Positions 31,292 through 52,448 of a stretch of 64,000 nt of DNA are shown here, one piece after another (position 1 is the first letter of the stretch; each line of letters starts with the position of its first letter). The notes beneath the pieces were generated by a model. The model was given only the letters and a program-made list of their open reading frames with translations. It was not told where the DNA came from and did no database searches. The stretch comes from Effusibacillus dendaii. GTDB lineage: Bacteria; Bacillota; Bacilli; Tumebacillales; Effusibacillaceae. The translations under genes and the position numbers were made by a program. The stretch lies in NCBI RefSeq assembly GCF_015097055.1, contig NZ_AP023366.1, positions 534,501-598,500 on the forward strand, read 5' to 3'.

Positions 31292-31504
31292 TGCCGTTTC
31301 CTCCTTTGTATTCTATGGTGAAATTATACGAGAACTACGTAATTATAGAAAAGTAATGGAAAATACAACTTGCGAAAGCAAATGGAACACATTAAGAAGA
31401 GAATCACCTTGCACTCACTTATTTTGCAAATACAATCTTGGTAGGTATATCCTTATACATATACCTGTCCATTTTCAGTTCGTACGACAGAAGGGGGAAA
31501 AAAT

Positions 31505-32542
31505 ATGTCCGAAACAAATTCTGTACATAAAAATAAAAAGCGGCTGAGCGATATCCGCTTCTCAGTTCTGGATCTTTCTCCGATCGTGGTCGGTGGCACA
31601 CCTGCTGACTCTTTCCGCAACAGTCTGGATCTCGCCCAGCACGCCGAGAAATGGGGCTTCCACCGCTACTGGCTGGCTGAGCATCATAATATGACCGGCA
31701 TTGCAAGTTCGGCTACATCGGTCGTAATTGGATACATAGCAGGAGGCACTTCCACTATTCGTGTAGGCTCAGGCGGGATCATGCTGCCCAATCATGCTCC
31801 CTTGGTGATTGCCGAACAGTTCGGTACTTTGGAATCTTTATATCCGGGACGTATTGATCTTGGACTGGGCCGCGCACCGGGTACCGATCAGGTGACCGCC
31901 CATGCTCTGCGCCGGGATTTGGGAAGCAATGGCGAGAACTTCCCGGAACAGGTAGATGAATTGCGATCCTATTTAAATCCGCCTGTGGATCCGCGTACCT
32001 TGCCTGTACGGGCGATTCCTGGTGAAGGACTGAACATTCCAATTTGGCTGTTGGGTTCGAGTGGTTTTAGCGCACAGTTGGCTGGCGAACTGGGGCTTCC
32101 ATTTGCGTTTGCGAGTCATTTCTCTCCGAATCATACACTTCCAGCCTTGAAACTGTACCGCAGCAGTTTCCAACCTTCGGAAGTGCTTGATGCGCCTTAC
32201 GCAATGGTGTGTGTAAACGTCATTGCAGCCGATAGCGATGAAACAGCCAGCTGGCTGGCTACCTCGATGCAACAACAGTTCCTGAATCTGGTGCGTGGTC
32301 TCCCCGGTCAGTTACATCCTCCGGTGGAAAACATGGACGAACTGTGGACCGATTACGAGAAGGCTGCTGTCAAACAGCAGTTGCGCTATACATTTGTCGG
32401 CGGCCCCAAGGCCGTAGAGGAACAACTGCAGTCGTTCCTGGATGACACCCAGGCGGACGAGATCATGGTCAATGCCCAGATTTTTGACCATCAGGCACGG
32501 CTGCGCTCCTACGAAATTGTATCGCAAATTGTCAATCGATAG
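31505..32542 (+). CDS. LLM-class flavin-dependent oxidoreductase (monooxygenase)
   Basis: 345 residues of the luciferase-like TIM-barrel family: [37 protein letters not shown] and [19 protein letters not shown] are hallmark stretches of the MsnO8/Atu3640-type group. Enzymes of this kind use reduced FMN (or F420) and oxygen. ATG 31505 follows AGAAGGGGGAAA. The 213-bp gap upstream shows no clear sigma-54 promoter. Substrate unknown. Confidence 0.85.
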
Positions 32543-32953: not shown

Positions 32954-33065
32954 ATATAAAATGTCAAATCGCCCAAAGTCCAAAAAAGAAGGGAGCTGAA
33001 CGGGTGATTACATCTTGGGCGTTCGTTTACCGTCAAAGTTTCGAAAAAATCAGGAGGTGTTCCAT

Positions 33066-34253
33066 TTGAAATTTGTATTATTCTATTTGCCGACTGTAGG
33101 AACGAAAAAACAGATTGAGTCGAGGATGCTGCCTGGTCAGAATACACAGGCTTACCAAAGTATGCTGTACCAAATAACTGAACAGGTCAAAGCGGCCGAC
33201 CAATTGGGGTATTATGCGTGTGCTTTTACAGAACACCATTTTCATATTGAAGGGTTTGAAACGTCCAACAATCCGATTCTTCTGAGCCTGTACCTAGGAA
33301 TGCAGACCAAAAATATTAAACTTGCCCAATTGGCCAATGTTCTTCCTTTCCATAATCCAATTCGTTTGGCTGAAGATATCGCCATGCTGGACCAAATGAC
33401 CAAAGGAAGGGCGATAGCCGGAATCGCCCGCGGCTATCAGAAACGTTGGGCCGATATATTGGGTCAAGTTTACGGTGTAGGGGCCACGTACTCGGACAAG
33501 TCGGAAACGGACGCGAAAAACAGAGCGTTGTTTAATGAACACTATCAAATCATGAAAAAAGCTTGGACTTCGGAAACATTCACCTATAAGGGAGACTTTT
33601 GGAACATTCCGCCTGAGAATCTGCAATTCCCGATGGAAGCGGTTCGCGCATTTGGCAAAGGATTGGGCGATGACAATCAGATCAGCGAAATCGGAATTGC
33701 GCCGCGTTGCTATCAGAAACCGCATGTACCGGTTTGGCAGCCATTTTCATTCAGTGAGGAGACTTTCCGATTCTGCGCACGGGAACACATTGTGCCATTT
33801 ATGCTGAATACAGATGATACATCTATCAGCAATCTGCTACGTGCTTATCAGGAAGAAGCAAGCAAGGTGGGACGTGAGCTTGCTCTGGGCGAGAGTGTGG
33901 GTGTTTTCCGGGATGTTCTTGTAGCCAAAACCGATGAAGAAGGGAAGCGATTGGCAGCAGGTGGAAACGGATGGGTGTGGGAGAATTGGTTCCATCCTCT
34001 GGGATTTGGTGAAGCGCTTCGTAGAGATGGAGAAAAGGGTCAAATCGGTGGGGACTTCAATACACTCTATGATCGCGGTTTCGAATATGTTGGAACACCT
34101 GATAGCGTGAATTTTATGATTGAAAAGTTGGTAAAGAATCATAACCCCGAATACTTGCTGATGTGGCAATATCCTGGCTTAGTTCCTCATGAGGACATGA
34201 TGCGTCATATTGAGATGTTTGCAAGTCAAGTGATGCCAAACTGGGTGGACTAA
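33066..34253 (+). CDS. LLM-class flavin-dependent monooxygenase
   Basis: 395 residues, bacterial-luciferase-like: FVLFYLPTVGTKKQIESRM at the N terminus, YYACAFTEHHFHIEGFETSNNPILLSLYLG, and GRAIAGIARGYQKRWADILG. TTG 33066 is decided by AGGAGGTG 6 nt upstream; the in-frame TTG at 33015 has none. First gene behind the sigma-54 promoter. Together with the next gene and a lactonase it may perform a Baeyer-Villiger-type or other ring-opening oxidation; this is inference. Confidence 0.86.
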   Translation: MKFVLFYLPTVGTKKQIESRMLPGQNTQAYQSMLYQITEQVKAADQLGYYACAFTEHHFHIEGFETSNNPILLSLYLGMQTKNIKLAQLANVLPFHNPIRLAEDIAMLDQMTKGRAIAGIARGYQKRWADILGQVYGVGATYSDKSETDAKNRALFNEHYQIMKKAWTSETFTYKGDFWNIPPENLQFPMEAVRAFGKGLGDDNQISEIGIAPRCYQKPHVPVWQPFSFSEETFRFCAREHIVPFMLNTDDTSISNLLRAYQEEASKVGRELALGESVGVFRDVLVAKTDEEGKRLAAGGNGWVWENWFHPLGFGEALRRDGEKGQIGGDFNTLYDRGFEYVGTPDSVNFMIEKLVKNHNPEYLLMWQYPGLVPHEDMMRHIEMFASQVMPNWVD

Positions 34254-34606
34254 TGATGATCAACAATCAGGGGATAACCAGCGACCAGATGATGGAATGG
34301 CTTCGCAAGAGTAATGGCAACGTATATGTCTCCTGTATGGGAGAGGACGGGTATCCCAATATATCGGTGCGCCACGTAGAAATGAATGGGGAGAATGCCT
34401 TGCTATACACGGATAACGCGAACAGTCGCACCGTTCAACTAATGATGCAGAGTCCAAAAGTAATTGTGAATCTATTGTCTGATACGGATCCATACCACGG
34501 GTGTAAAATGAAGGGAGAAGCAAAATTCGAACAAACTGGGGAGAGCAGTTTACAGTATACGCCTGTACGGGTCACGATTATTCTAAAGGAAATGTTTCCC
34601 TATTAA
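34253..34606 (+). CDS. PPOX-class (pyridoxamine oxidase-fold) flavin protein
   Basis: 117 residues with the split-barrel FMN-binding pattern NGNVYVSCMGEDGYPNISVRHVEMNGENALLYTDNANSRTVQLMMQSPKVIVNLLSD. It is shorter than most of the family (130-150), ending soon after the last barrel strand. Starts at the overlapping TAATGATG with the LLM stop (ATG 34253 or 34256), so it is co-translated. It could handle flavin for the monooxygenase or bind a product; activity unknown. Confidence 0.78.
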   Translation: MMINNQGITSDQMMEWLRKSNGNVYVSCMGEDGYPNISVRHVEMNGENALLYTDNANSRTVQLMMQSPKVIVNLLSDTDPYHGCKMKGEAKFEQTGESSLQYTPVRVTIILKEMFPY

Positions 34607-34671: not shown

Positions 34672-34701
34672 AAAATCGATGTAACAGTGGGAGGGAAAAT
34701 C

Positions 34702-36714
34702 ATGTCCATCATTCCTGTTTCAATTTACAAACAAGTAAATGAAGCCGATGTTGTGTCGATTCGAGACAAATTGTTTGAAATTTGGAGGAAACAGCTGTTT
34801 GAAGAACAGAAAGATGGACATCTTTCCTCCAAAGATTCTATTATACGTGATTTGGTTTTACAATCTTGGGAACGTTGCAAAGACTATCGGTTGAACCCGC
34901 TGATCCAAGGTTCTACGAAAAATTTGTCGGAACATCGATTGATCGATTTGCAAAAATCCAACGAAGTATTATCTTTGGCAAAACCGATTATAAAGAAATT
35001 GGACCATGAACTATCCAATACCCACCATGTCGTTCTGTTCGCAGACCAAGAAGGCGTGATTTTGGATGCGCAGGGTGATCCGTGCACTCTGCAAAAAATC
35101 GGAAATACGGTCAATGCTGCAACCGGTTCGCATTGGGGAGAGCGTTGGGCGGGAACCAACGCAATTGGCACATCTATTGTTTTAAAGCAACCGGTGCAAC
35201 TGTTTTCCTCAGAACATTATGCGCAAGGTTGCCATCAGTGGATCTGTTCAGCCGCTCCAATCCGGGATCCCTTCTCGCATGAAGTAGTGGCGGTTCTCAA
35301 TCTCTCGACAGAAAACCACATTATACAACCTCGCAGTATGATGATGGCCATTTGGGGAGCCAATGAAATTGAGCGGATTCTCTTTCAAAATTACTATGAA
35401 GCTCGAGAAATGATGCAAAATATTTACGTCAATAGTGTGATGAAGTGGAAGAATCATCTGGTTATCTTAAGCGATTCCAAAGGCAATCCGTTGTGGATGA
35501 ATGAAGACTTTCCTAAAGAGGATGTCCGCGCCATCCTCTCTCGTGGTTTGGAAGGCAATGAAAGGGATCGGGAGAAGGAATGGGAAGAAGGAGTGATCCT
35601 TGTTGATTCACGTTATAAAGCCAGATTTAAGAAGATTTTCTGGAACGGCCGTCTGATCGGACAATTAGCACTCTTGGAAGAACCGGCACGCATGAACCAC
35701 CATAAAGTAAAACAGCGTAACCATGCCAAATATTCATTCGAATGCTTGATTGGACAATCCGAGGCTTTCCAACGCACCATACGTTTGGGCAAAGTGGCTG
35801 CCCAATGCGATTCCAATGTGCTGATTACGGGTGAAAGCGGCACCGGCAAAGAATTGATTGCAAATGCCATTCATCAGGCGAGCAGCAGATGCAATCAACC
35901 ATTTGTTGCCATCAACTGTGCAGCCATCCCTCAAAATTTGCTTCCCAGTGAATTATTCGGCTACGTAGGAGGCGCTTACACAGGCGCCAATCCGAAAGGC
36001 AGCATTGGTAAATTTGAAATGGCTGACCACGGAACGATCTTTTTGGACGAGATTGGTGACATGCCGTTAGGACTGCAGGTTCATCTTCTACGCGTCATTC
36101 AAGAGCAAGAGATTATGCGGTTGGGTGGTACACACTGTATTCCGATTAATGTCCGAGTGATTGCGGCCACCAACAAAAATCTTCCGGAAGAGATTAAGTC
36201 AGGAAGATTTCGTCAGGACCTCTACTACCGGATCAATGTGATAGAAATCGAAATGCCTCCATTGCGCCACCGCAGAGAAGATATTCCATTGCTCTGTGAA
36301 CATTTCTTCAAACATTTTGCGAAAAGAAAAGGAATTGGACCATGTGTGATCACGGATGAAGCCAAGCAGATTTTAACTCAGTATCCTTGGCATGGAAACA
36401 TTCGTCAGTTGGAAAATGTGATGGAATATGCAGTAAACTTCTCTTCCAATGGGCAAATCACACCGGAAGATTTACCGAAAGATCTGGCTCGGCACGACTT
36501 CCCCCTGGCAGGCGGTCACGCAGAGAATCTGAATCCGGTAGAGCAGGCGGAAATGAAATGGATACTGGAAATATTGGAACGTACCAAGATGGATGTTACC
36601 AAAGCGGCCAAAGAACTAAATATGAATCGAAGTTCCATTTATCGCAAGCTAAAAAAATATGGATACGATGTTGCGAAGTTAAAGCAGCAATTCATGGAAC
36701 GAGGCATCCTGTAA
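34702..36714 (+). CDS. Sigma-54-dependent transcriptional activator, AcoR-like
   Basis: 670 residues: N-terminal GAF sensory region (~70-260, with [20 protein letters not shown] as in AcoR), AAA+ domain with Walker A GESGTGKE from Gly377, the sigma-54 contact loop GAYTGA at 424-429 (Tyr variant of GAFTGA), [11 protein letters not shown], and a C-terminal Fis-type HTH ([24 protein letters not shown]). ATG 34702 follows GGGAGGG. It should activate the -24/-12 promoter at 32936 upon sensing a pathway compound. Confidence 0.93.
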
Positions 36715-36741: not shown

Positions 36742-37530
36742 ATGGCAAAAGGGTTGAAGGTGACCGTAGTTGACTGTGGACCTTTAAATATTGACAAAGG
36801 GGTTTTGATGACTGGGGCTACTGGAAAGATTACCGTACCATCAAGTGTCTATATCATTGAGCACCCGCAAAAAGGATTAATTCTTTACGACACGGGTGTG
36901 AACTATCAGGTAGCCGACCCGGAAGCGGCAGAAAAATACTGGGGTCCCGGAATGCGTGATGCCTTCGGCTGTACTTTAACGCGCGAAGGGGCAATTGACC
37001 GTCAATTGATTAACTTGGGATACAAACTGGACGATGTAAAATACGTGGTCATGTCCCATTTGCACCTGGATCATGCAGGGGGGATGTGCCATTTTCCGGA
37101 TGCCACTTTCGTGGTACAGAAAAATGAACTTCGCTATGCCTGGTGGCCTGATCACTGGCCGGGACTGGTTTACTGCTTAAACGATTACAAGGAAACGAGG
37201 GGATTCACATTCATCCAATTAAATGGCGATGTAGATTTGTTCCAGGACGGAACAATTAAACTGATCTCTACTCCAGGACATACCATCGGACATCAGGCGA
37301 TGATGATCAGATTGGAGAATCGCGGACTGGTATGTCTGGGTGCGGATACAGCTCATTTGAAAGAAGCCTATCAGAGCTTGGCGCCAATGCCATACGATTG
37401 GAATAACGAGGCTGTGACCGATTCTTATATGAAAATTCGTGCCATCGAACAGGCTGGCATCCCTGTCTATTTCACACATGATCCGAAAGATTTTGAAGAC
37501 TTTCCTCATAATGGAGAATGGGCCGACTAA
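36742..37530 (+). CDS. Metallo-beta-lactamase-fold lactonase (AHL-lactonase family)
   Basis: 262 residues. The HxHxDH dinuclear zinc motif starts at His106 (SHLHLDHAGG); further ligands are His in STPGHTIGHQ and Asp in CLGADTAH. The N-acyl-homoserine-lactonase-like subgroup hydrolyses lactones, here perhaps a lactone formed by the LLM monooxygenases rather than a quorum signal. ATG 36742 follows GGGAGG, 27 bp after the activator gene. Confidence 0.85.
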   Translation: MAKGLKVTVVDCGPLNIDKGVLMTGATGKITVPSSVYIIEHPQKGLILYDTGVNYQVADPEAAEKYWGPGMRDAFGCTLTREGAIDRQLINLGYKLDDVKYVVMSHLHLDHAGGMCHFPDATFVVQKNELRYAWWPDHWPGLVYCLNDYKETRGFTFIQLNGDVDLFQDGTIKLISTPGHTIGHQAMMIRLENRGLVCLGADTAHLKEAYQSLAPMPYDWNNEAVTDSYMKIRAIEQAGIPVYFTHDPKDFEDFPHNGEWAD

Positions 37531-37550: not shown

Positions 37551-37595
37551 AGGAAGAAGAAGGGTTCGCTCTTCTTCTCTTGTTTTCTTTTTTAC
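37551..37595 (+). terminator. Intrinsic terminator after the lactonase gene
   Basis: AAGAAGAAGGG, TTCG loop, CTCTTCTTCTC (10 bp, one G-U), followed by TTGTTTTCTTTTTT. Separates the activator/lactonase unit from the RibBA-like operon. Confidence 0.8.
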
Positions 37596-37625
37596 CTATA
37601 AACATAAATCGATAGGAGGAGAGGT

Positions 37626-38642
37626 ATGTTTGATCCGATCGAAGACAGTATGGCAGCTTTGAAAAAAGGGGGGATGGTCATCTTGGTTGATGATCATACG
37701 CCTGGACATCCATTGGGTTATCTCTATACCCTATCTGAACATATACAACCGGAAATCATTAATTATATGATCACACAAGCTAAAGGCTTGGTGTGTATAG
37801 CTTTGACAAAAGAACGGGCTAAATTTCTCAATATTCCTTTAATGGTAAATCCTTACGGTGAACCTGGTGAAAAAGCATTTACCGTTTCAGTAGATTACAC
37901 AAAAACCAGTACGGGCATATCTGCTTATGAACGTGCGGAAACCATTCAAGCTTTGCTCAGGGAAGAGTCATCACCCGAGGATTTCAAGCGGCCGGGCCAT
38001 ATGTTTCCCCTCGTGGCGGAGAGCAGGGGACTTCTGGATAAGAAAGGAATCGCCGAGGCGGCGGTTGATTTGGCGCAATTTTGCGATTCTTCCTCATTGT
38101 CCGGAACATTTTGTGAGGTATTGGGTAAGGATGGGTCTATAGCGAACATGGCGGAACTGAAGAAGCGAGCTAAAGAAGAGGGTTTGAAAACAGTATCCAT
38201 GACTCAACTTTACAATTATCGAAAGAAAACGGAATCTCTTATTGAACGCATAGGCCAATTTTCCTTCCCTACCAGATATGGCATGTTACACGCCATCATA
38301 TATATCAATCAGTTGGACGACAGTGAATATTTGGTAGTCGTGGAAGGCAGTGTAAAAGGGCTGTCCCCCATTCCGTTATATATGTACGCAGGAAATATCT
38401 TGGGTGATTTGTTTGTCAAAAGCGAGAAAAAGGGTATGAGCAATTTGTGCAGATCGTTGGAAGAATTGAAGAAAAGCGGCCATGGAGTTCTGATTTATCG
38501 AAACATAAGGTATCCCGGAAATGATTCCCTTCAAATCAAACAAACAGGAACAACTGGCGAAATTTGGGATGAGGTGATCATCCAGAAAATTTTAAAGGAT
38601 ATCCATGTTGCCGATGTAGTGGTAAAAGATAGTGTTTCCTGA
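37626..38642 (+). CDS. RibBA-like protein without the catalytic motifs
   Basis: 338 residues aligning over both halves of RibBA. The DHBP-synthase half keeps the framework (GLVCIALTKERAK, AFTVSVDYTKTSTGISAYERAETIQAL, RPGHMFPL, EAAVDLAQFCD) but the metal/substrate motif DDEDRENEGD is replaced by VDDHTPGHPLGY (from Asp22), and the His of HTEAAVDL is absent. The GTP-cyclohydrolase-II half lacks the zinc cysteines (SEC...CDC). So it can hardly make riboflavin precursors. First gene of an acyl-CoA operon, preceded by AGGAGGAGAGG. Function unknown; a new reaction or flavin-related sensor is possible. Confidence 0.8.
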   Translation: MFDPIEDSMAALKKGGMVILVDDHTPGHPLGYLYTLSEHIQPEIINYMITQAKGLVCIALTKERAKFLNIPLMVNPYGEPGEKAFTVSVDYTKTSTGISAYERAETIQALLREESSPEDFKRPGHMFPLVAESRGLLDKKGIAEAAVDLAQFCDSSSLSGTFCEVLGKDGSIANMAELKKRAKEEGLKTVSMTQLYNYRKKTESLIERIGQFSFPTRYGMLHAIIYINQLDDSEYLVVVEGSVKGLSPIPLYMYAGNILGDLFVKSEKKGMSNLCRSLEELKKSGHGVLIYRNIRYPGNDSLQIKQTGTTGEIWDEVIIQKILKDIHVADVVVKDSVS

Positions 38643-38685: not shown

Positions 38686-39855
38686 TTGCACAAGTTACTG
38701 GAGTTGCCGGTCGTTAAACTGTCGGAAGAAACCGAAAAGCTGAGGGAGGAAGTCCGTAAATTTATTTCAGAAGAACTGAACGCAGATTCATTCGAGCCAA
38801 AGTGTGATTCATGGCTTGGTGAACTATCGCAGGAATTTAGCCGCAAGTTGGGGGAACGTGGCTGGATTGGAATGACCTGGCCCAAAAAGTATGGGGGACA
38901 TGAAAGAACAGCAATCGAACGCTTCGTTGTAACCGAAGAACTGTTGGCAGCGGGCGCCCCGGTTGCCGGGCATTGGATTGCGGACCGCCAGACGGGACCT
39001 TTATTGTTGAGGTACGGAACGGAAGAGCAGCGGCAATTTTTTTTGCCAAAGATCGCAAAGGGAGAATGTTACTTTGCGATCGGATTGAGTGAGCCAAATG
39101 CGGGTTCCGATTTAGCGGGCGTATTAACGAGTGCAACAAAGGTGGAACAAGGATGGATTTTAAACGGCAGCAAGTTGTGGAGTAGCGGCGCCCATCATGC
39201 TCACTACATGATTGTACTATGCCGTACCTCACCTCAAAATCCGGAGAATCGCCATCAAGGGATGAGTCAGCTTCTCGTAGATTTGTCCGCGAATGGTGTA
39301 ACGATCAGGCCGATACGTTTAATGAACGGCGAACATCATTTTAATGAAGTAATCTTTGAAGATGTATTTATATCGGATGACATGCTGGTGGGTGAGGTCG
39401 GTAACGGCTGGAAACAGGGAATGGCTGAATTGGCGTATGAACGAAGCGGACCGGAACGTTTCCTAAGCACGTTTCCATTGTTGGTCGAATTAGTGGACAT
39501 TCTCCAAGACCATACAGACAAACGAATTCACATTGAAATTGGACAATTGGCTGCCCGTTTGCGCACATTGCGTCACATGTCTTTAGGTGTTGCCAGTTTA
39601 CTGCAACGCGGTGTAACACCTGACATTGCTGCAGCACTCGTTAAAGATTTGGGAACACAATTCGAGCGTGACGTCGCAGAGATCGCGCGATTGCTGGTTT
39701 CCCCTAGGTTGACAGCCCCCTCTGCAGTCCATGCCCCGACAAAATATGAAAAAAGGTTGGCCGAAGCGTTATTGCATGCACCTGGTTTTACGCTTCGCGG
39801 TGGAACAACCGAAATTTTACGCGGCATTGTTGCTAAGGGGGTAGCTGCGCGATGA
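38686..39855 (+). CDS. Acyl-CoA dehydrogenase
   Basis: 389 residues of the FAD acyl-CoA dehydrogenase fold: AIGLSEPNAGSDLAGVLTSATK (flavin/substrate loop), LNGSKLWSSGAHHA, and ...GFTLRGGTTEILRGIVAKGV at the C terminus. TTG 38686 with AGAGGTGAG upstream. The next acyl-CoA dehydrogenase starts inside its stop (ATGA), so the two probably form a heteromeric enzyme, as seen for steroid- and alicyclic-acid-degrading dehydrogenases. Confidence 0.87.
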   Translation: MHKLLELPVVKLSEETEKLREEVRKFISEELNADSFEPKCDSWLGELSQEFSRKLGERGWIGMTWPKKYGGHERTAIERFVVTEELLAAGAPVAGHWIADRQTGPLLLRYGTEEQRQFFLPKIAKGECYFAIGLSEPNAGSDLAGVLTSATKVEQGWILNGSKLWSSGAHHAHYMIVLCRTSPQNPENRHQGMSQLLVDLSANGVTIRPIRLMNGEHHFNEVIFEDVFISDDMLVGEVGNGWKQGMAELAYERSGPERFLSTFPLLVELVDILQDHTDKRIHIEIGQLAARLRTLRHMSLGVASLLQRGVTPDIAAALVKDLGTQFERDVAEIARLLVSPRLTAPSAVHAPTKYEKRLAEALLHAPGFTLRGGTTEILRGIVAKGVAAR

Positions 39856-40913
39856 ACGAGATGCGTAAAATGATTATCGACTCCGTCACGAAAATAATGA
39901 AAGACTTTTGTTCAAAAGAGATGATAAATGAATCCGAACATGGAGCTTGGGCAGGTCAATTGTGGAAAACACTGGCCGAAGCGGGGATGATTACCGTAGC
40001 TGTATCCGAAGAGGTTGGCGGAACCGGCGGAGATTATGGCGATGCTTTAAGCATACTTAGAATTAGCGGTAAATACTCCGCTCCCATTCCATTAGCGGAA
40101 ACATATATGGCGAATTGGCTGCTCGCCGAATTAGGGCTGCCGATTTACGAACAGCCGTTGACGATTTTGCCGTTTGAAAATAATGGAACGATAGAAGTCA
40201 GGAGAAATGCAAATGGGATGACCATCTGCGGAACAGCGAAGAATGTGCCATGGGCGAGATATGCGGAAAAATTAGTCGTTATGGGTCAATCGGAACAAGA
40301 ATTTTTGGTCGCTGTGATTGATCCTGATGATTGTATCATTATACCTGGCAAAAATCTGGCTGGTGAAGCACGCGATATTGTCGAATTAAACGGCGTGGAA
40401 ATGCAAGATTGTCCCTATGCCGCGGTCGACGGAGAAGCAGTGCAAAACAAATTACAATCTTATGGAGCATTAACCCGATCCGTCTTAATGGCGGGAGCAC
40501 TGGAACGGATTTTGGAACTGGCTCTGGCTTATTCGAATGAACGCCAGCAGTTTGGGCGTTCTCTTAACCGCTTCCAGGCAATCCAACAGCAAATTGCCAT
40601 TCTGGCAGGGGAGGTGGCAGCGGCGGGGGTTGCTGCCGACTATGCTGTTGAAGCGTTCACAGACGCAGTGAATCCGACTGAAACTATCGTTGCAAAAATC
40701 CGAATCGGGCAAGCAGCCAGCATAGCAGCGCCGATTGCCCACCAAATTCATGGTGCGATAGGATTTACCGATGAACATGTGTTACATCAAAGTACCCGCC
40801 GTCTCTGGTCTTGGCGTGATGAATTCGGAACCGAGAGCGAATGGGCAGAACAGTTAGGGAAGCGATTAATGAACACAGGTGCTGGATCCCTATGGTCATT
40901 TATTACTTTATAA
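39852..40913 (+). CDS. Acyl-CoA dehydrogenase, divergent partner subunit
   Basis: 353 residues. The middle domain is short and poorly conserved, the C-terminal helical domain is better kept (YSNERQQFGRSLNRFQAIQQQIAILAGEVAAAGVAADYAVEAF and HQIHGAIGFTDEHVLHQSTRRLWSW). No clear catalytic Glu at either usual position is evident to me. Overlap with the upstream gene suggests an alpha2beta2 complex in which only one chain carries the full active site. Confidence 0.82.
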   Translation: MNEMRKMIIDSVTKIMKDFCSKEMINESEHGAWAGQLWKTLAEAGMITVAVSEEVGGTGGDYGDALSILRISGKYSAPIPLAETYMANWLLAELGLPIYEQPLTILPFENNGTIEVRRNANGMTICGTAKNVPWARYAEKLVVMGQSEQEFLVAVIDPDDCIIIPGKNLAGEARDIVELNGVEMQDCPYAAVDGEAVQNKLQSYGALTRSVLMAGALERILELALAYSNERQQFGRSLNRFQAIQQQIAILAGEVAAAGVAADYAVEAFTDAVNPTETIVAKIRIGQAASIAAPIAHQIHGAIGFTDEHVLHQSTRRLWSWRDEFGTESEWAEQLGKRLMNTGAGSLWSFITL

Positions 40914-40958
40914 CCGTTCATTCCTGAACCTATCATGCAAGGTGCGGAGGTGGTGCTT

Positions 40959-41666
40959 ATGAGTAATACAAAAATTCGTTTCATTATAGAACAAGCAAGG
41001 GAAGAAAAAAGAGAACTCTTAACTGAATATGAATCAAAGTTGATTTTATCAGAACTAGGAATTAATACTCCTCCTATTATGATCGCGAAAACTCGTGAGG
41101 AAGTGGCGGAGAAGGCATCTTCATTGGGCTTTCCGATTGTCATGAAAATTCATTCTCCCGATATCGCGCATAAATCGGATATAGGGTGTGTCGTAGTAGG
41201 AATTGGATCGGTTGAAGAGTCAATAGAGGCCTATGACAAAATTATGAACAGTGCGGCAAAAAACGTGCCAATGGCCCGTATACAGGGTGTGTCCGTTCAG
41301 ACGATGGCTGACAAGGACATTGAAATTATCATTGGAATGAAAAGAGATCCGGTTTTTGGTCCTACCGTCCTGTTCGGTTTAGGTGGTATCTTCGTTGAGT
41401 TAATCAAAGATATCTCCTTAAGGGTCTACCCTTTCACTGACCAAGATGTGGGAACCATGATCAAAGAAATTAAAGGATATCCATTGCTTCGTGGATACCG
41501 GGGACAACAGAAGCGGGATATCGATGCGATTAAAGCGGTAATTCACAAAATAGCGGAGTTAGCTGTTCAAGTAAACGAAATCCAGGAAATCGATCTCAAC
41601 CCGATTTTTGTATATGAAAAAGGGATATGTGCTGTGGATGCGCGTATTTTGCTGGACTTTTGGTAA
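40959..41666 (+). CDS. ATP-grasp subunit of NDP-forming acyl-CoA synthetase
   Basis: 235 residues: ATP-grasp_5 domain (LTEYESKLILSELGINTPP, GFPIVMKIHSPDIAHKSDIGCVVVGI, MKRDPVFGPTVLFGLGGIFVEL, EIDLNPIFV). ATG 40959 follows GCGGAGGTGG. This is the beta part of ADP-forming acetate/acyl-CoA ligases; the alpha part is the next gene. Confidence 0.85.
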   Translation: MSNTKIRFIIEQAREEKRELLTEYESKLILSELGINTPPIMIAKTREEVAEKASSLGFPIVMKIHSPDIAHKSDIGCVVVGIGSVEESIEAYDKIMNSAAKNVPMARIQGVSVQTMADKDIEIIIGMKRDPVFGPTVLFGLGGIFVELIKDISLRVYPFTDQDVGTMIKEIKGYPLLRGYRGQQKRDIDAIKAVIHKIAELAVQVNEIQEIDLNPIFVYEKGICAVDARILLDFW

Positions 41667-41687
41667 AGCAAAAAAGGGGGAGCAAAG

Positions 41688-43091
41688 GTGGAGAACACGC
41701 GAAATCAAGTGCATAAGTTACTCTACCCAGAGTCGATAGCCATTGTAGGGGCTTCAAATAATGCGGCGAAAATGGGGGGACGTTTGCTGTCTTACCTTCT
41801 GAATCACTCTTACAAAGGAACCGTTTATCCTGTTAATCCGAAAGAGGATATCATTCAAGGATTAACCGCCTACTCAAGCGTCAGGGAAGTCCCTGAAAAA
41901 GTGGACCTGGCCTTCCTCATTGTTCCCAACCAGCATATTTTCAGTGTGCTGCAAGAATGTGCAGAAAAAGGGATAGAGACGGTCATCATCAGTTCTTCGG
42001 GATTTTCGGAAACGGGTAAAGATGGGGAACGACTGCAAAAACAACTGATCGACTTTGCGCGGGAAAAAGGCATCCGACTATGCGGACCGAATTCAATCGG
42101 AGTTGTTAATACACATCATCAATTGTTTTTAAGTTTTAGCATGTCGATGGAAATGGAAAATGTGCCGGTTGGAGCCATTTCCTTTATCACACAGAGCGGA
42201 GCCGTTGGCGGAGGCTTATTGAGCAAAGCCTGGGAAGAAGGAATCGGTATAGGGTTTTGCATCAGTTCGGGAAACGAAGCGGATTTGGACTCATCTGATT
42301 ATCTCGATTATTTATTGAATGATGAGAATACAAAAGTGATTTGTTTGTTTTTAGAAGGCATTTCAAATGGGGAAAAGTTCAAGCAGGTGCTTGCAAGAGC
42401 CAGAGATATAGGAAAGCCCGTTATCGTTTATAAAAACGGACGAACAGACATTGGCCAGAATACGGTTAAGTCACACACCGGATCCTTGGCTGGAAATTAC
42501 CAAGTCTATCAAGCTTTGTTTAACCAATATGGGATCATTTCCGTTCTATACTTAGAAGATATGTTTGACACGGCGAAAGCTATGTCAGTCTTACCACCAC
42601 CAAAAGGGAACCGCGTGGGGATCATTTCCACATCCGGTGGCGCATGTACAATTCTTGCAGATCATTGTGTCGCATGTGGATTGAATTTACCTGATTTGAA
42701 TGTGACAAGTAAAGAAAAACTGAAACAAGTTTTGCCATCCTTCGCGCAGGTGAAAAATCCTCTGGATACCACAGCCAACATCATTATGAATCCGGACATA
42801 TTTAAAGAGACATTACTCGTATTTTTGGACGATCATAACATTGATTCGATCATTCTTATGTTAACGACAGTAGGTGAACCTATCGCTTCCCAGGTGGCGG
42901 CTGACATTATTGAAATCTTCCAACGGGCGGAAAAACCGATCATTCTGGCTTGGTCGATAGCCGAATCTCTGGCCAAACAAGGGATGATGATGCTGAAACA
43001 AGCGCAAATTCCTTTATATCCTACAGCAGAGCGTGCCGTACGGGTATTGCATCAAATGGTTCAGTTTTCTGTGAAAGAATCAAATTTTTAA
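41688..43091 (+). CDS. CoA-binding/succinyl-CoA-ligase-like subunit of acyl-CoA synthetase
   Basis: 467 residues: N-terminal CoA-binding Rossmann domain (SIAIVGASNNAAKMGGRLLSYLLNHSYKGTVYPVNP), two ligase-CoA domains with the phospho-acceptor His in KSHTGSLAG. GTG 41688 with AAAGGG-type site. With the ATP-grasp subunit it activates an organic acid to its CoA thioester, feeding the acyl-CoA dehydrogenases. Members may also work in the ATP-generating direction. Confidence 0.85.
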   Translation: MENTRNQVHKLLYPESIAIVGASNNAAKMGGRLLSYLLNHSYKGTVYPVNPKEDIIQGLTAYSSVREVPEKVDLAFLIVPNQHIFSVLQECAEKGIETVIISSSGFSETGKDGERLQKQLIDFAREKGIRLCGPNSIGVVNTHHQLFLSFSMSMEMENVPVGAISFITQSGAVGGGLLSKAWEEGIGIGFCISSGNEADLDSSDYLDYLLNDENTKVICLFLEGISNGEKFKQVLARARDIGKPVIVYKNGRTDIGQNTVKSHTGSLAGNYQVYQALFNQYGIISVLYLEDMFDTAKAMSVLPPPKGNRVGIISTSGGACTILADHCVACGLNLPDLNVTSKEKLKQVLPSFAQVKNPLDTTANIIMNPDIFKETLLVFLDDHNIDSIILMLTTVGEPIASQVAADIIEIFQRAEKPIILAWSIAESLAKQGMMMLKQAQIPLYPTAERAVRVLHQMVQFSVKESNF

Positions 43092-43109: not shown

Positions 43110-43928
43110 ATGGGCGACTTGTTATTTTCGGTAGAGAATGGAATTGCAAGGATTACTATGAATCGACCCGATAGCTTGAATGCATTTAGCAAGGAAATGA
43201 TTCTTTCCTGGATGGAAGCATTGGAAACCATTCGTGACTCGGAAGAAATAAGAGTAGTGATCCTTACCGGCAGCGGCAAAGCATTTTGTACTGGCGGAGA
43301 TATTAAATCCCTGATCAACGGAGGCGGATTCCTGTACGACGATTCGGATGAGAAGGAGGACTTTACCTCAACCGCATTGGCAAGGAAAAATGTGCTATGG
43401 AAGAAAGTGCAGAGGATTCCTCTGTTAATGCAAGAAATTGATAAACCTGTAATTGCCTCTATTAACGGATTTGCGGTAGGGGCAGGTTTAGATATGGCAT
43501 TGATGTGTGATATTCGTATTGCCGCACAAAGTGCCAAGTTAGGAGAAGGATATGTGAAAGTCGGTATAGTCCCTGGAGATGGCGGAGCATACTTTCTGCC
43601 GCGAATTGTAGGAATTGACAAGGCTTTGGAAATGTTATGGAGAGGTGATATTCTTACTGCCGAGGAAGCAAAGGAAATTGGCTTGGTTACACATGTAGTT
43701 TCTGATGAAGAGTTGACCGATTTTGTTGAGAGCTATGCAGAAAGATTGGCAAACGGCCCTCAACAAGCGATACGGTTTATGAAAAGAGCCGTTTACCAGA
43801 GCTTAACGATGGATCTGCGTTCGTCATTGGACATGATTTCCTCAGCAATGGGAATAGTCACAGAACTTCCCGATTTTCATGAGGGCATACTGTCTATGGC
43901 AGAGAAAAGAAAGCCAAATTTTAAATAA
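43110..43928 (+). CDS. Enoyl-CoA hydratase/isomerase family protein
   Basis: 272 residues, crotonase fold: ITMNRPDSLNAFSKEM, oxyanion segments VILTGSGKAFCTGGDIKSL and ASINGFAVGAGLDMALMCDIRIA, and acidic residues in EGYVKVGIVPGDGGAYFLPRIVG (Glu and Asp at the two catalytic positions). AAGGAGAATGG upstream of ATG 43110. Likely hydrates the enoyl-CoA made by the upstream dehydrogenases. Confidence 0.88.
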   Translation: MGDLLFSVENGIARITMNRPDSLNAFSKEMILSWMEALETIRDSEEIRVVILTGSGKAFCTGGDIKSLINGGGFLYDDSDEKEDFTSTALARKNVLWKKVQRIPLLMQEIDKPVIASINGFAVGAGLDMALMCDIRIAAQSAKLGEGYVKVGIVPGDGGAYFLPRIVGIDKALEMLWRGDILTAEEAKEIGLVTHVVSDEELTDFVESYAERLANGPQQAIRFMKRAVYQSLTMDLRSSLDMISSAMGIVTELPDFHEGILSMAEKRKPNFK

Positions 43929-49800: not shown

Positions 49801-50970
49801 ATGAATCTTGCTTTAGACTCATTTGAATTCGGCCTGCATACGCAAATTTATTACGGAGTCAATAAGTTAAACGAACTTCCGGACATTATCAGAAAGTACA
49901 ACTACAAAAAAGTTTTTATTTGTACGGATAAAGGGATTGTGCATTCCGGCAATCTGAATCGTTTGGAGAATCTACTGAATCAAGCGGGGATTGATTTTTT
50001 CACATTTACAGATGTAGAACCGGATCCCAGCACAGAGATTGTCCAGCATGTAAAGAATCTGTATATAGAAAACGGATGCGACGCACTTATCGGTATGGGG
50101 GGCGGAAGCTCCATCGACACGGCGAAAGGTGTTTCCATAGCGGTAGCAAATCCGGGGGATCTCAATCAGTATGAAGGAAAAGACAAAATCCCAAACAAAG
50201 GTCCGGACATTATTGCCATTCCCACAACGGCCGGTACCGGTTCGGAAATTACTCATGCCACCGTGTTAAAAGATAAGAAACGCCATTATAAAATGGGAAT
50301 TTTAAGCCAAAAATTGCACGCCAAAGCAGCGATTCTTGATCCTCAATTACTAACCACTGTTCCAAGAGGCGTTGCGGCGATCACTGGTATGGATGCCCTA
50401 AGCCATGCGATCGAATCGTATACATCTAACCAGGCGCAACCGATTACAGAAGCACTGGGTTTATATGCGATTCGCTTAATCGGGAAACACCTGCGCCCAT
50501 TCGTGGCACAGAGAACGGATATAAACGCCGCTTCGCATATGATGTTGGCTTCCACTATTGCTGGCGCGGCGTTCATTTGGGGAAGAGTTGCCGCCGTTCA
50601 TGCAGTGTCACATCCGCTCGGAGGACGTCTCGGAGTTGCGCACGGGCTGGCGAATTCACTGCTATTGCCTGTCGTTATGAGATATAACGTCAGCACCAAC
50701 TATGAAAAATTCAGGGATATCGCGATCGCTCTTGGCGAAAATGTGGAAGGATTAAGCCTGCGTGAAGCCGCAGAACGCTCGATTGTCGCAGTCGAGCAGT
50801 TGATTCAGGACCTGGAAATCCCAACTACGTTAAACGCGCTGAATCTGCACCCATCGGATGAAGAGCTGGATGTGATTGCGCAGGAAGCATTTCAGTCGGG
50901 GATTGCCAACGCAAATCCGAAGGATTGTACAGTCGCTGATTTACGCAAGATGATCGAGAAAATCAGATAG
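49801..50970 (+). CDS. Iron-containing alcohol dehydrogenase
   Basis: 389 residues of the group III Fe-ADH family: GGGSSIDTAKG NAD-binding loop, PTTAGTGSEIT, and the metal ligands in GMDALSHAIESY, AAVHAVSHPLGGRLGVAHGLANS. Weak ribosome site before ATG 49801. First gene after the operator; its aldehyde product could be taken by the next gene. Substrate is unknown. Confidence 0.88.
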   Translation: MNLALDSFEFGLHTQIYYGVNKLNELPDIIRKYNYKKVFICTDKGIVHSGNLNRLENLLNQAGIDFFTFTDVEPDPSTEIVQHVKNLYIENGCDALIGMGGGSSIDTAKGVSIAVANPGDLNQYEGKDKIPNKGPDIIAIPTTAGTGSEITHATVLKDKKRHYKMGILSQKLHAKAAILDPQLLTTVPRGVAAITGMDALSHAIESYTSNQAQPITEALGLYAIRLIGKHLRPFVAQRTDINAASHMMLASTIAGAAFIWGRVAAVHAVSHPLGGRLGVAHGLANSLLLPVVMRYNVSTNYEKFRDIAIALGENVEGLSLREAAERSIVAVEQLIQDLEIPTTLNALNLHPSDEELDVIAQEAFQSGIANANPKDCTVADLRKMIEKIR

Positions 50971-50984
50971 GGGGGAAATTCAGA

Positions 50985-52448
50985 ATGGCAACCATACAAC
51001 AAACAGCCATACAAGTGAAGAATTATATCGGAGGTCAATGGGTTGCATCAAAAAGTGAAGACACCATTCAGAGAGAAAATCCTGCCCATACAGATGAAAT
51101 TGTAGCAATCGTAACCAATTCAACGCAAGAAGAGGCCATTCAGGCGATTGAATCGGCTCACGAAGCGTTCCAAAGTTGGTCGAAAATGCCTGCTCCGAAA
51201 AGAGCGGAGTATATTTTTAAGTTTATGGATGTTCTGGAGCAAAGAAGACAAGAGGTGGCCGAACTCCTTACAAGGGAAATGGGCAAGCCAATCAGGGAAG
51301 CACACGGTGAAATTACGAAGGCGATTAACGAGGCGCGGTATTCTGCCGGAGAAGCTCTCCGTTTGACAGGGGAAACCCTTCCAAGTGAACGCGCGGGAAT
51401 TCAAGTGAGAACTATCCGCGTTCCAAAAGGAGTCATCGCCGCCATTTCCCCTTGGAATTTTCCACTGGTTACACCGTTGCGTAAAATCGCTCCGGCACTG
51501 GCCGCCGGGAATACGGTTGTATTTAAGCCTGCAACGGTGACAGCGTCCATGGGAGCAAAAATCATAGAATTGTTTGAAGAGGCGGGGCTTCCTGCAGGCG
51601 TATTGAATCTAATTGTCGGTTCCGGCAGGAGCGTAGGAAATACGCTCGTATCGCATCCGCTGGTAAAAGGGGTTACCTTTACCGGTTCGACGCTTGTTGG
51701 GACCGGTATCTATAAACTGGCGGCAGAACGTCTGATTGAAGTGCAGTTGGAAATGGGTGGTAAGAACGCTGCTATTATTTATGATTACCCTGATATTTCG
51801 GGGGCGGTCGATCAGATTTTGTCTGCTGCCTTCGCAGCAAGCGGACAGCGATGCACGTCGATCAGCCGCATCGTCGTAGAAAGATCGATTGAAAGCGAGG
51901 TAGCGCAGTATTTAGCGGATAAACTTGCTTCCTATGTAATTGGCGACGGCATATCGGAAAACGTAAACATGGGTCCGTTGGTCAGTCAAGATCAACTGGA
52001 AACTGTCGAGAAATATGTCAAAATCGGGCTTGAGGAAGGCGCCACTTTACTGGTGGGAGGCAAAAAACCGGATGGAATTGCCGGAGGCTACTATTATGAA
52101 CCAACGGTATTCACAAATGTCAAGTCGGATATGCGAATTGCCCAGGAAGAAATTTTTGGTCCTGTGCTTGTTGTGATTCCGGTAGACAGCTTTGAGGAAG
52201 CGATTCAAGTGGCTAATCACAGCGAATACGGGCTGGCTGTTTCCTGCTTTACTCACAATATGTTCTATGCGGAGAAAGCCGTGGAAGAAATCGAGACGGG
52301 TATGATCCATATCAATAACGGCACAATCAGCGAATCACACGTTCCATTTGGCGGCCTTAAAAATTCAGCCGTTGGTTCATACTCGATCGGTTCGACCGGC
52401 AAAGACTTCTTAACCGCACTAAAAGTGGTGTATGCCAGTTCGAAGTAA
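50985..52448 (+). CDS. NAD(P)-dependent aldehyde dehydrogenase
   Basis: 487 residues: AISPWNFPLVTPLRKIAPALAAGNTVVFKPA, catalytic Glu in LEMGGKNA, nucleophile Cys in SGQRCTSISR, and the C-terminal PFGGLKNSAVGSYSIG. Most like succinate-semialdehyde/benzaldehyde-type dehydrogenases. AGGGGGGAAA before ATG 50985, 14 bp after the Fe-ADH gene, so alcohol to aldehyde to acid is a plausible joint reaction. Confidence 0.88.
   Translation: MATIQQTAIQVKNYIGGQWVASKSEDTIQRENPAHTDEIVAIVTNSTQEEAIQAIESAHEAFQSWSKMPAPKRAEYIFKFMDVLEQRRQEVAELLTREMGKPIREAHGEITKAINEARYSAGEALRLTGETLPSERAGIQVRTIRVPKGVIAAISPWNFPLVTPLRKIAPALAAGNTVVFKPATVTASMGAKIIELFEEAGLPAGVLNLIVGSGRSVGNTLVSHPLVKGVTFTGSTLVGTGIYKLAAERLIEVQLEMGGKNAAIIYDYPDISGAVDQILSAAFAASGQRCTSISRIVVERSIESEVAQYLADKLASYVIGDGISENVNMGPLVSQDQLETVEKYVKIGLEEGATLLVGGKKPDGIAGGYYYEPTVFTNVKSDMRIAQEEIFGPVLVVIPVDSFEEAIQVANHSEYGLAVSCFTHNMFYAEKAVEEIETGMIHINNGTISESHVPFGGLKNSAVGSYSIGSTGKDFLTALKVVYASSK

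Follow-up and report, generated by a model that had tools for sequence, protein, structure and literature searches.

The window, meaning the whole 64-kb stretch of Effusibacillus dendaii DNA that we analysed, carries a gene of the RibBA family among genes that are predicted to serve catabolism. We designate this gene pseudo-RibBA (pRibBA). The features of the locus, from the LLM2 gene to the dehydrogenases at its far end, are as follows.

33015..34253, + strand: LLM-class (luciferase-like) flavin monooxygenase LLM2, 75% identical in Peribacillus (domain match and tblastn)
34253..34606, + strand: PNPOx_N-like small protein (match just below the Pfam cut-off)
34687..36714, + strand: sigma-54-dependent activator (domain match)
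36742..37530, + strand: AttM-like lactonase of the metallo-beta-lactamase fold, 71% and 76% identical to two Peribacillus copies (domain match and tblastn)
37555..37578, + strand: terminator-like hairpin of 10 pairs with a T-rich tail, in the gap between lactonase and pRibBA (consensus match only)
37614..37619, + strand: ribosome-binding site AGGAGG of pRibBA, 6 bases 5' of the ATG (read from the sequence)
37626..38642, + strand: pRibBA, 338 aa (open frame, domain match and comparison with the Peribacillus homologue)
38686..39855, + strand: acyl-CoA dehydrogenase 1 (ACAD1), 70% identical in Peribacillus (domain match and tblastn)
39852..40913, + strand: acyl-CoA dehydrogenase 2, 57% identical in Peribacillus (domain match and tblastn)
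40935..43091, + strand: ADP-forming acyl-CoA synthetase, beta 40935-41666 and alpha 41688-43091 (domain match)
43110..43928, + strand: enoyl-CoA hydratase, 69% identical in Peribacillus (domain match and tblastn)
49801..52448, + strand: iron alcohol dehydrogenase (49801-50970) and aldehyde dehydrogenase (50985-52448), which may belong to this catabolic region too

The pRibBA frame, at 37626-38642, is open through all 338 codons, and ACAD1 starts 43 bases past its end. A preliminary description of this locus had the gene leading an acyl-CoA operon with its own ribosome site. The ribosome site is there, at 37614-37619, and from the hairpin just upstream and the short gap to ACAD1 it is plausible that pRibBA is the first gene of the operon. 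The hairpin is one of 17 found in the scanned region, where shuffled sequence gave a mean of 14.7. Matches to the sigma-54 promoter pattern with at most two mismatches were uninformative (37 against 33.2 expected), and sigma-70-like sites in the scanned region were fewer than in shuffles (20 against 28.5).

The acyl-CoA genes are followed by a branched-chain-type ABC transporter and then by the iron alcohol dehydrogenase and aldehyde dehydrogenase. LLM2 would, by its family, use reduced FMN. Judged by gene content and analogy, the cluster looks like a pathway in which an alcohol is converted to a ketone, an FMNH2-dependent monooxygenase inserts oxygen, the resulting lactone is opened and the product enters beta-oxidation. 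The model for this pathway is provided by the camphor ketolactonases, reported as FMNH2 users grouped with luciferases (PMC6352141). Six linked genes are common to the window and Peribacillus: LLM2, the lactonase, pRibBA, the two acyl-CoA dehydrogenases and the enoyl-CoA hydratase. The Peribacillus versions of the dehydrogenase and hydratase genes are encoded on the opposite strand, indicating that the gene set has been rearranged yet kept together. The Peribacillus region also contains flavin reductases and two stand-alone riboflavin kinases, and flavin supply may therefore be a theme of the cluster.

The Peribacillus riboflavin kinase genes lie beside LLM genes, at 31481-31792 and 39264-39695 of locus L091 and at 21063-21455 of L092; the kinase adjoining the Peribacillus pRibBA has 103 aa in the BFRIG and Ant232 plasmids and 130 aa in R9-11. 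A second LLM protein, of the MsnO8 type, is encoded just upstream of the window's cluster (31505-32542); a search of the Peribacillus stretch L056 for it found nothing at 1e-10.

The host's riboflavin genes lie outside the window in a rib operon that, by our reading of the sequences, runs ribD-ribE-ribBA-ribH. An FMN riboswitch match lies upstream of that operon, and one other RibBA-family gene, with its motifs intact, was found in the host. In the 64-kb window, neither an FMN riboswitch nor any other Rfam RNA matched at the gathering score. Near the host rib operon there is also a group II intron match (L104, 384-456).

Residues replaced in both halves of pRibBA

Pfam DHBP_synthase (PF00926) matched pRibBA residues 7-198 with an E of 1.3e-55 (188.4 bits against a cut-off of 26.4), and GTP_cyclohydro2 matched residues 211-293 with an E of 1.7e-9, covering only profile positions 5-84 of 165. 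The protein scored 239.6 bits against the NCBIfam model for bifunctional RibBA (NF006803), below its cut-off of 569, and its 338 aa compare with about 391-403 aa in most full-length relatives. A confident AlphaFold2 model, with a mean pLDDT of 83.2, predicts that the DHBPS fold is kept; the best Foldseek matches of this model were 4i14, a solved RibBA, and 6mnz, a RibBX. The structure prediction that the preliminary description had proposed favours an intact fold for that domain. Its statement that the whole two-domain RibBA architecture is kept was too strong, because the GCH2 part lacks the zinc cysteines and the C-terminal piece. For the structure alignment 24 of 31 references were used, with the window protein on the pRibBA side. 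Within the gene, the segments considered below are these.

37689..37721, + strand: rewritten loop-1, residues 22-32, DDHTPGHPLGY instead of DDEDRENE-GD (alignment)
37899..37934, + strand: retained loop-4, residues 92-103, proposed cover of the partner's active site in DHBPS dimers (alignment)
37980..38012, + strand: retained loop-5, residues 119-129 (RPGH), which lines the partner's active site in DHBPS dimers (alignment)
38034..38063, + strand: rewritten His segment, residues 137-146, LLDKKGIAEA instead of VLRRAGHTEA (alignment)
38226..38639, + strand: truncated GCH2-like region, residues 201-338, without the zinc cysteines (Pfam and alignment)

Residues were compared with 83 motif-intact relatives, percentages being taken over rows with a letter at the site. 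From the 88 proteins built, a partial protein (L035), two pieces (L038 and L039) and a repeat of L036 (L084) were left out before residues were counted; L031 was not in the built set. R, E, E, D and H at positions 26, 27, 29, 32 and 142 are present in 83/83 motif-intact rows. R26, E27, N28, D32, R139, H142 and T143, each found in 98-100% of these relatives, are missing from pRibBA, which bears out the replacement of the DRENEGD motif recorded in the preliminary description. The acidic loop-1 is absent from the Peribacillus homologue as well: in the window and Peribacillus proteins respectively, R26 has become P and E, E27 G in both, N28 H and K, E29 P in the former with E kept in the latter, and D32 Y in both. 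The HTEA histidine, H142, is I in both proteins, and T143 is A in the window and S in Peribacillus. The HTEAAVDL segment, listed in the same description as replaced, has lost its H and T and kept AAVDL.

Twelve DHBPS-domain sites that are at least 95% conserved are lost in both homologues (R26, E27, N28, D32, T83, G134, R139, H142, T143, M172, R174 and I192), and at eight of them the new residue is the same in both (G27, Y32, K83, R134, I142, I172, N174 and M192). In the GCH2 half, the zinc-cysteine column 270, Cys in 97% of relatives, is lost in pRibBA. Where the host RibBA reads HSECMTGDVFGSHRCDCG, pRibBA reads YAGNILGDLFVKSEKKG; neither the three cysteines nor the full domain was found, and the earlier reading of the zinc cysteines as replaced holds. 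From these residues, both RibBA activities have very probably been lost.

A DHBPS or GCH2 that stays active with unusual residues and boosts flavin supply directly may have counterparts elsewhere, as motif-intact ribB or ribBA genes occur in LLM or flavin-reductase clusters of Sulfitobacter, Sphingopyxis and Agrobacterium (with LLM genes specifically, motif-intact ribB in Sulfitobacter and Sphingopyxis). For pRibBA we regard this as highly improbable, given that all five of the residues invariant in the 83 relatives are replaced in the window protein, and that a zinc-cysteine column is lost together with the C-terminal part of GCH2. In the Sulfitobacter plasmid (L095, 12055-16028), genes for an LLM protein, a metallo-beta-lactamase-fold protein, an SDR and a motif-intact single-domain ribB stand in a row that adjoins aromatic-degradation and thiamine genes.

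The Peribacillus homologue and the history of the frame

A plasmid search returned 299 matching records, three of which are Peribacillus plasmids with a rewritten homologue. Motifs were read in 8 of the 299 and in the Sulfitobacter ribB, which was reached through its LLM neighbour; among the plasmid records read, the rewriting was seen in the three Peribacillus records only. Two of the Peribacillus copies are identical and intact (325 codons) and the third is frameshifted. The Peribacillus loop-1 reads DDFIEGKEIGY where pRibBA has DDHTPGHPLGY and the enzyme DDEDRENE-GD, and TISDA stands at the site of the enzyme's GHTEA. The two homologues have in common the changes of E to G, D to Y and H to I and one inserted Leu or Ile, giving a shared loop-1 skeleton of DD-x3-G-x2-[LI]-G-Y. 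The preliminary description had asked whether the replacements are conserved next to acyl-CoA genes in other genomes; the exact string VDDHTPGHPLGY is not conserved, and the skeleton is, in Peribacillus, with acyl-CoA neighbours.

Identity between pRibBA and the Peribacillus protein is 40% by tblastn and 43% over aligned residues. In a tree of 50 of the 85 aligned rows they form one group with support of 100/99, on branches of 1.15 and 2.85 compared with a median end branch of 0.25; both are flagged as long branches, and the Peribacillus row is odd in letter make-up. Close homologues with intact motifs would have pointed to isolated degeneration. The sole homologue that groups with pRibBA carries the rewriting and has acyl-CoA neighbours, and we rejected isolated degeneration because the same rewriting is found in Peribacillus too.

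Genome samples, which overlap, gave no further member at cut-offs that would hide members more distant than the canonical RibBAs. In the class sample (398 genomes, limit 1e-62) there were 246 matches besides pRibBA, the best at 5.7e-86 in a 399-aa frame, and the motifs were intact in all 28 aligned rows and same-order loci in which they were read. The phylum sample (398 genomes, 1e-87) returned pRibBA itself as sole match, and further samples, run without a positive control, returned 0/39 and 0/4 at 1e-87 and 0/397 at 1e-84. Replaced motifs occurred in none of 33 genome loci, over the matched parts listed; L030 and L034 read DREAEGD and HTEG, and L035 begins past loop-1 and has HTEA. A phage search gave 11 matching records, by match count only. 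Only two independent homologues are known in the lineage. This pseudoenzyme branch of the RibBA family is real, though rare, and is tied to a catabolic cluster.

At fourfold sites the six shared genes differ by 0.62-0.72 between the window and Peribacillus, which is near saturation; in pRibBA the first and second positions differ by 0.38 compared with 0.72 at fourfold sites. In a simple drift simulation with uniform point changes only, a single run out of 2000 retained the open 338-codon frame at 0.2 substitutions per site, and none of 2000 did at 0.3. The near-saturated fourfold sites and the simulated loss of the frame together argue that selection kept the pRibBA frame, so it stayed open over most of the period since the lineages split. 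An active-site loss shared with an independent lineage in which the frame is open is what a pseudoenzyme under selection would present, with one of the three Peribacillus records frameshifted. The earlier wording that the gene is "not decayed" fits the open window copy and does not extend to that record.

LLM2, at E <= 1e-100, was found in two of the 397 other genomes of the class sample, G041 and G033. Each has one RibBA-family gene, with motifs intact, and lacks pRibBA; G033 has lactonase, dehydrogenase and hydratase genes as well, and in G041 the cluster is seen in part only, its contig ending beside LLM2. As LLM2 genomes occur without it, pRibBA is accessory to the LLM cluster.

These genomes would also suit a dispensable relic, a flavin-supply RibBA that hitch-hiked with the cluster, became inactive, had a temporary use and is now gradually disappearing, the window copy being as yet unbroken. 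The R9-11 copy from Peribacillus points the same way: it has a frameshift and is shortened by 10 bases, and apart from the deletion it differs by two substitutions, each of them protein-changing, whereas LLM2 in this plasmid pair has 13 silent codon changes and no protein-changing one. Among the six shared genes pRibBA has diverged fastest, with 43% identity where the others have 56-76%, and its branches in the tree are long. We nonetheless think a relic somewhat unlikely, since the two frames, of 338 and 325 codons, have remained open despite near-saturated synonymous sites although free drift in the simulation would have broken them, since the eight identical DHBPS-domain replacements fall at near-invariant sites, and since the window copy is preceded by a good ribosome-binding site.

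Own pocket and partner-lent loops

In DHBPS dimers each active site is reported to be formed mostly by loops 1-3 of one chain and loops 4-5 of the other, and loop-4 is proposed to act as a lid over the other monomer's active site (PMC5228156). We mapped the loop boundaries through an alignment with the V. cholerae protein and widened them by a few residues, the choice being made after the sequence had been seen. The His segment, which we take to be part of a chain's own pocket, was counted there.

Near-invariant residues were kept in both homologues at 10/27 sites of the own pocket, 12/13 of the lent loops and 13/17 of the rest of the domain (lent loops against own pocket, one-sided Fisher p = 0.001; own pocket against rest, p = 0.012), in tests that were framed after seeing the sequence and in which neighbouring sites are not independent. 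Identity between the window and Peribacillus proteins is 27/50 in the own pocket, 17/23 in the lent loops and 55/127 elsewhere. The excess over the rest is significant for the lent loops (p = 0.006) and not for the own pocket (p = 0.13), and lent loops over own pocket reach p = 0.086 only. By comparison, in six motif-intact pairs of similar divergence the own pocket was always above the rest (p 0.0006 to 0.011); the pairs with L030 and L034 are not independent, because their counts are identical, and the L060 partner is RibBX-like with intact DHBPS motifs. Constraint on the old pocket thus appears to have weakened while the lent loops and core were kept. A heterodimer partner of the housekeeping RibBA would be expected to show this pattern, and so would a protein that merely folds and dimerises.

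The preliminary description had also suggested a new catalytic or sensory function. In such an enzyme or ligand sensor the pocket would have been rebuilt (G27, Y32, K83, R134, I142, N174) for a lactone, hydroxy acid, acyl-CoA or flavin, and the place of the gene inside a catabolic cluster would suit it. Where both homologues leave the consensus, they have the same new residue at 11/23 own-pocket sites, a share that hardly exceeds the 24/59 elsewhere in the domain. The identity of the own pocket is not clearly raised, unlike in the control pairs, which argues against new shared chemistry there and lends no support to the idea of a changed catalytic role for the old pocket. The Peribacillus plasmids differ among themselves by an E to K change in loop-1, although K is found in the frameshifted copy, and the pathway genes occur without pRibBA. 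Together these observations make a new enzyme or sensor quite unlikely.

Known RibBA paralogues and a possible role

Homology to the bifunctional RibBAs of Bacilli (DHBPS/GTP cyclohydrolase II) extends over pRibBA residues 1-293, with 37-41% identity in order-level relatives and the same predicted fold, and the N-terminal part scores highest against Bacilli RibBAs rather than against RibBX types. Compared with these RibBAs, pRibBA has loop-1, the His and the zinc cysteines replaced, lacks the C-terminal GCH2 part and lies outside the rib operon, with no riboswitch found in the window.

RibBX proteins (Acinetobacter 6mnz, Shewanella, Aeromonas) are RibB fused to a dead GCH2-like X domain, and 6mnz is the top PDB sequence match of pRibBA. 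A GCH2-like domain without zinc and ring-opening residues, a RibBX trait by the definition in PMC10012899, is present in pRibBA. RibBX has an active RibB half, whereas the RibB residues of pRibBA are replaced and an active RibB is not predicted. Membership of RibBX was rejected on the loss of these residues, on the scores of the N-terminal part and on the tree, in which pRibBA does not group with the RibBX-like rows.

In Arabidopsis, RIBA2 and RIBA3 are reported as RIBA paralogues in which residues needed for one of the activities are missing and which are no longer bifunctional (PMC3509567). Each has lost one of two activities, whereas pRibBA has lost the residues for both and sits in a catabolic cluster. 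Dead-half RibBA paralogues are already known, as RibBX and as plant RIBA2/RIBA3, and a lineage with both halves dead differs from them. Among the matches listed in open-licence literature, by titles and abstracts, there was no double-dead RibBA or RibBA pseudoenzyme partner. The mel2 locus of Mycobacterium marinum, in which the gene for luciferase-like MelF is reported to be clustered with DHBPS and GTP cyclohydrolase II domains (PMC1793995), resembles the pRibBA cluster in combining an LLM gene with these domains; its neighbours and context differ.

We tentatively read pRibBA as a paralogue of bifunctional RibBA that has lost catalysis, resembles the Bacilli RibBAs most closely and serves as a non-catalytic partner or regulator of the housekeeping RibBA, a possibility that we put short of probable. 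A RibBA gene would have been copied into a catabolic cluster, common to Peribacillus and built round the LLM monooxygenase, lactonase and beta-oxidation enzymes, after which both active sites were apparently lost. We infer the loss of activity, the keeping of the frame for a protein still useful without chemistry, and its pairing with the housekeeping RibBA. With loops 1-3 largely lost and loops 4-5 kept, pRibBA could act on its partner's DHBPS site: by lending loops 4-5 it would complete, stabilise or throttle that site, and flavin supply would thereby be tuned while the flavin-using pathway is on.

This partner role is suggested by the lent loops, which are kept at 12 of 13 sites and show higher identity between the two proteins than the remainder of the domain does, and it is consistent with the six linked genes shared with Peribacillus, the selection on the frame, the predicted fold and the presence in the host of an intact RibBA in a riboswitch-controlled operon. 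Precedent comes from Shewanella, where the dead X domain of RibBX reportedly regulates the RibB domain to which it is fused (PMC10012899). Against it, loops 4-5 may be kept for folding or self-dimerisation alone, their 12/13 standing beside 13/17 in the core, and the frameshifted Peribacillus copy, the LLM2 genomes without pRibBA and the fastest divergence of the six genes also weigh on that side. A more specific version, which we consider unlikely, is that the catabolic operon brings its own pseudoenzyme subunit, which pairs with the housekeeping RibBA and raises or lowers flavin supply past the RNA-level control of the FMN riboswitch when the FMNH2-dependent pathway is on. If true, a RibBA with both halves dead in two distant Bacilli would be a clean case for the coupling of flavin supply to flavin-using monooxygenase pathways, and the lineage poses the question of what a pseudoenzyme does by lending loops across a dimer interface.

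Two further kinds of RibBA-family gene were seen in the genomes sampled. A second RibBA-like gene in same-order relatives (L050-L055, from G007, G008 and G010-G013) encodes proteins of 362-380 aa with intact DHBPS motifs and no GCH2 RQEGRGIGL loop, that is, RibBX-like proteins in Firmicutes; four of them are in the tree, apart from pRibBA. Five loci of Bacillus-type genomes, Neobacillus among them (L025, L027, L028, L032 and L033), have their RibBA match in a short frame of just 202-211 aa that carries DHBPS motifs and so is perhaps a stand-alone RibB.
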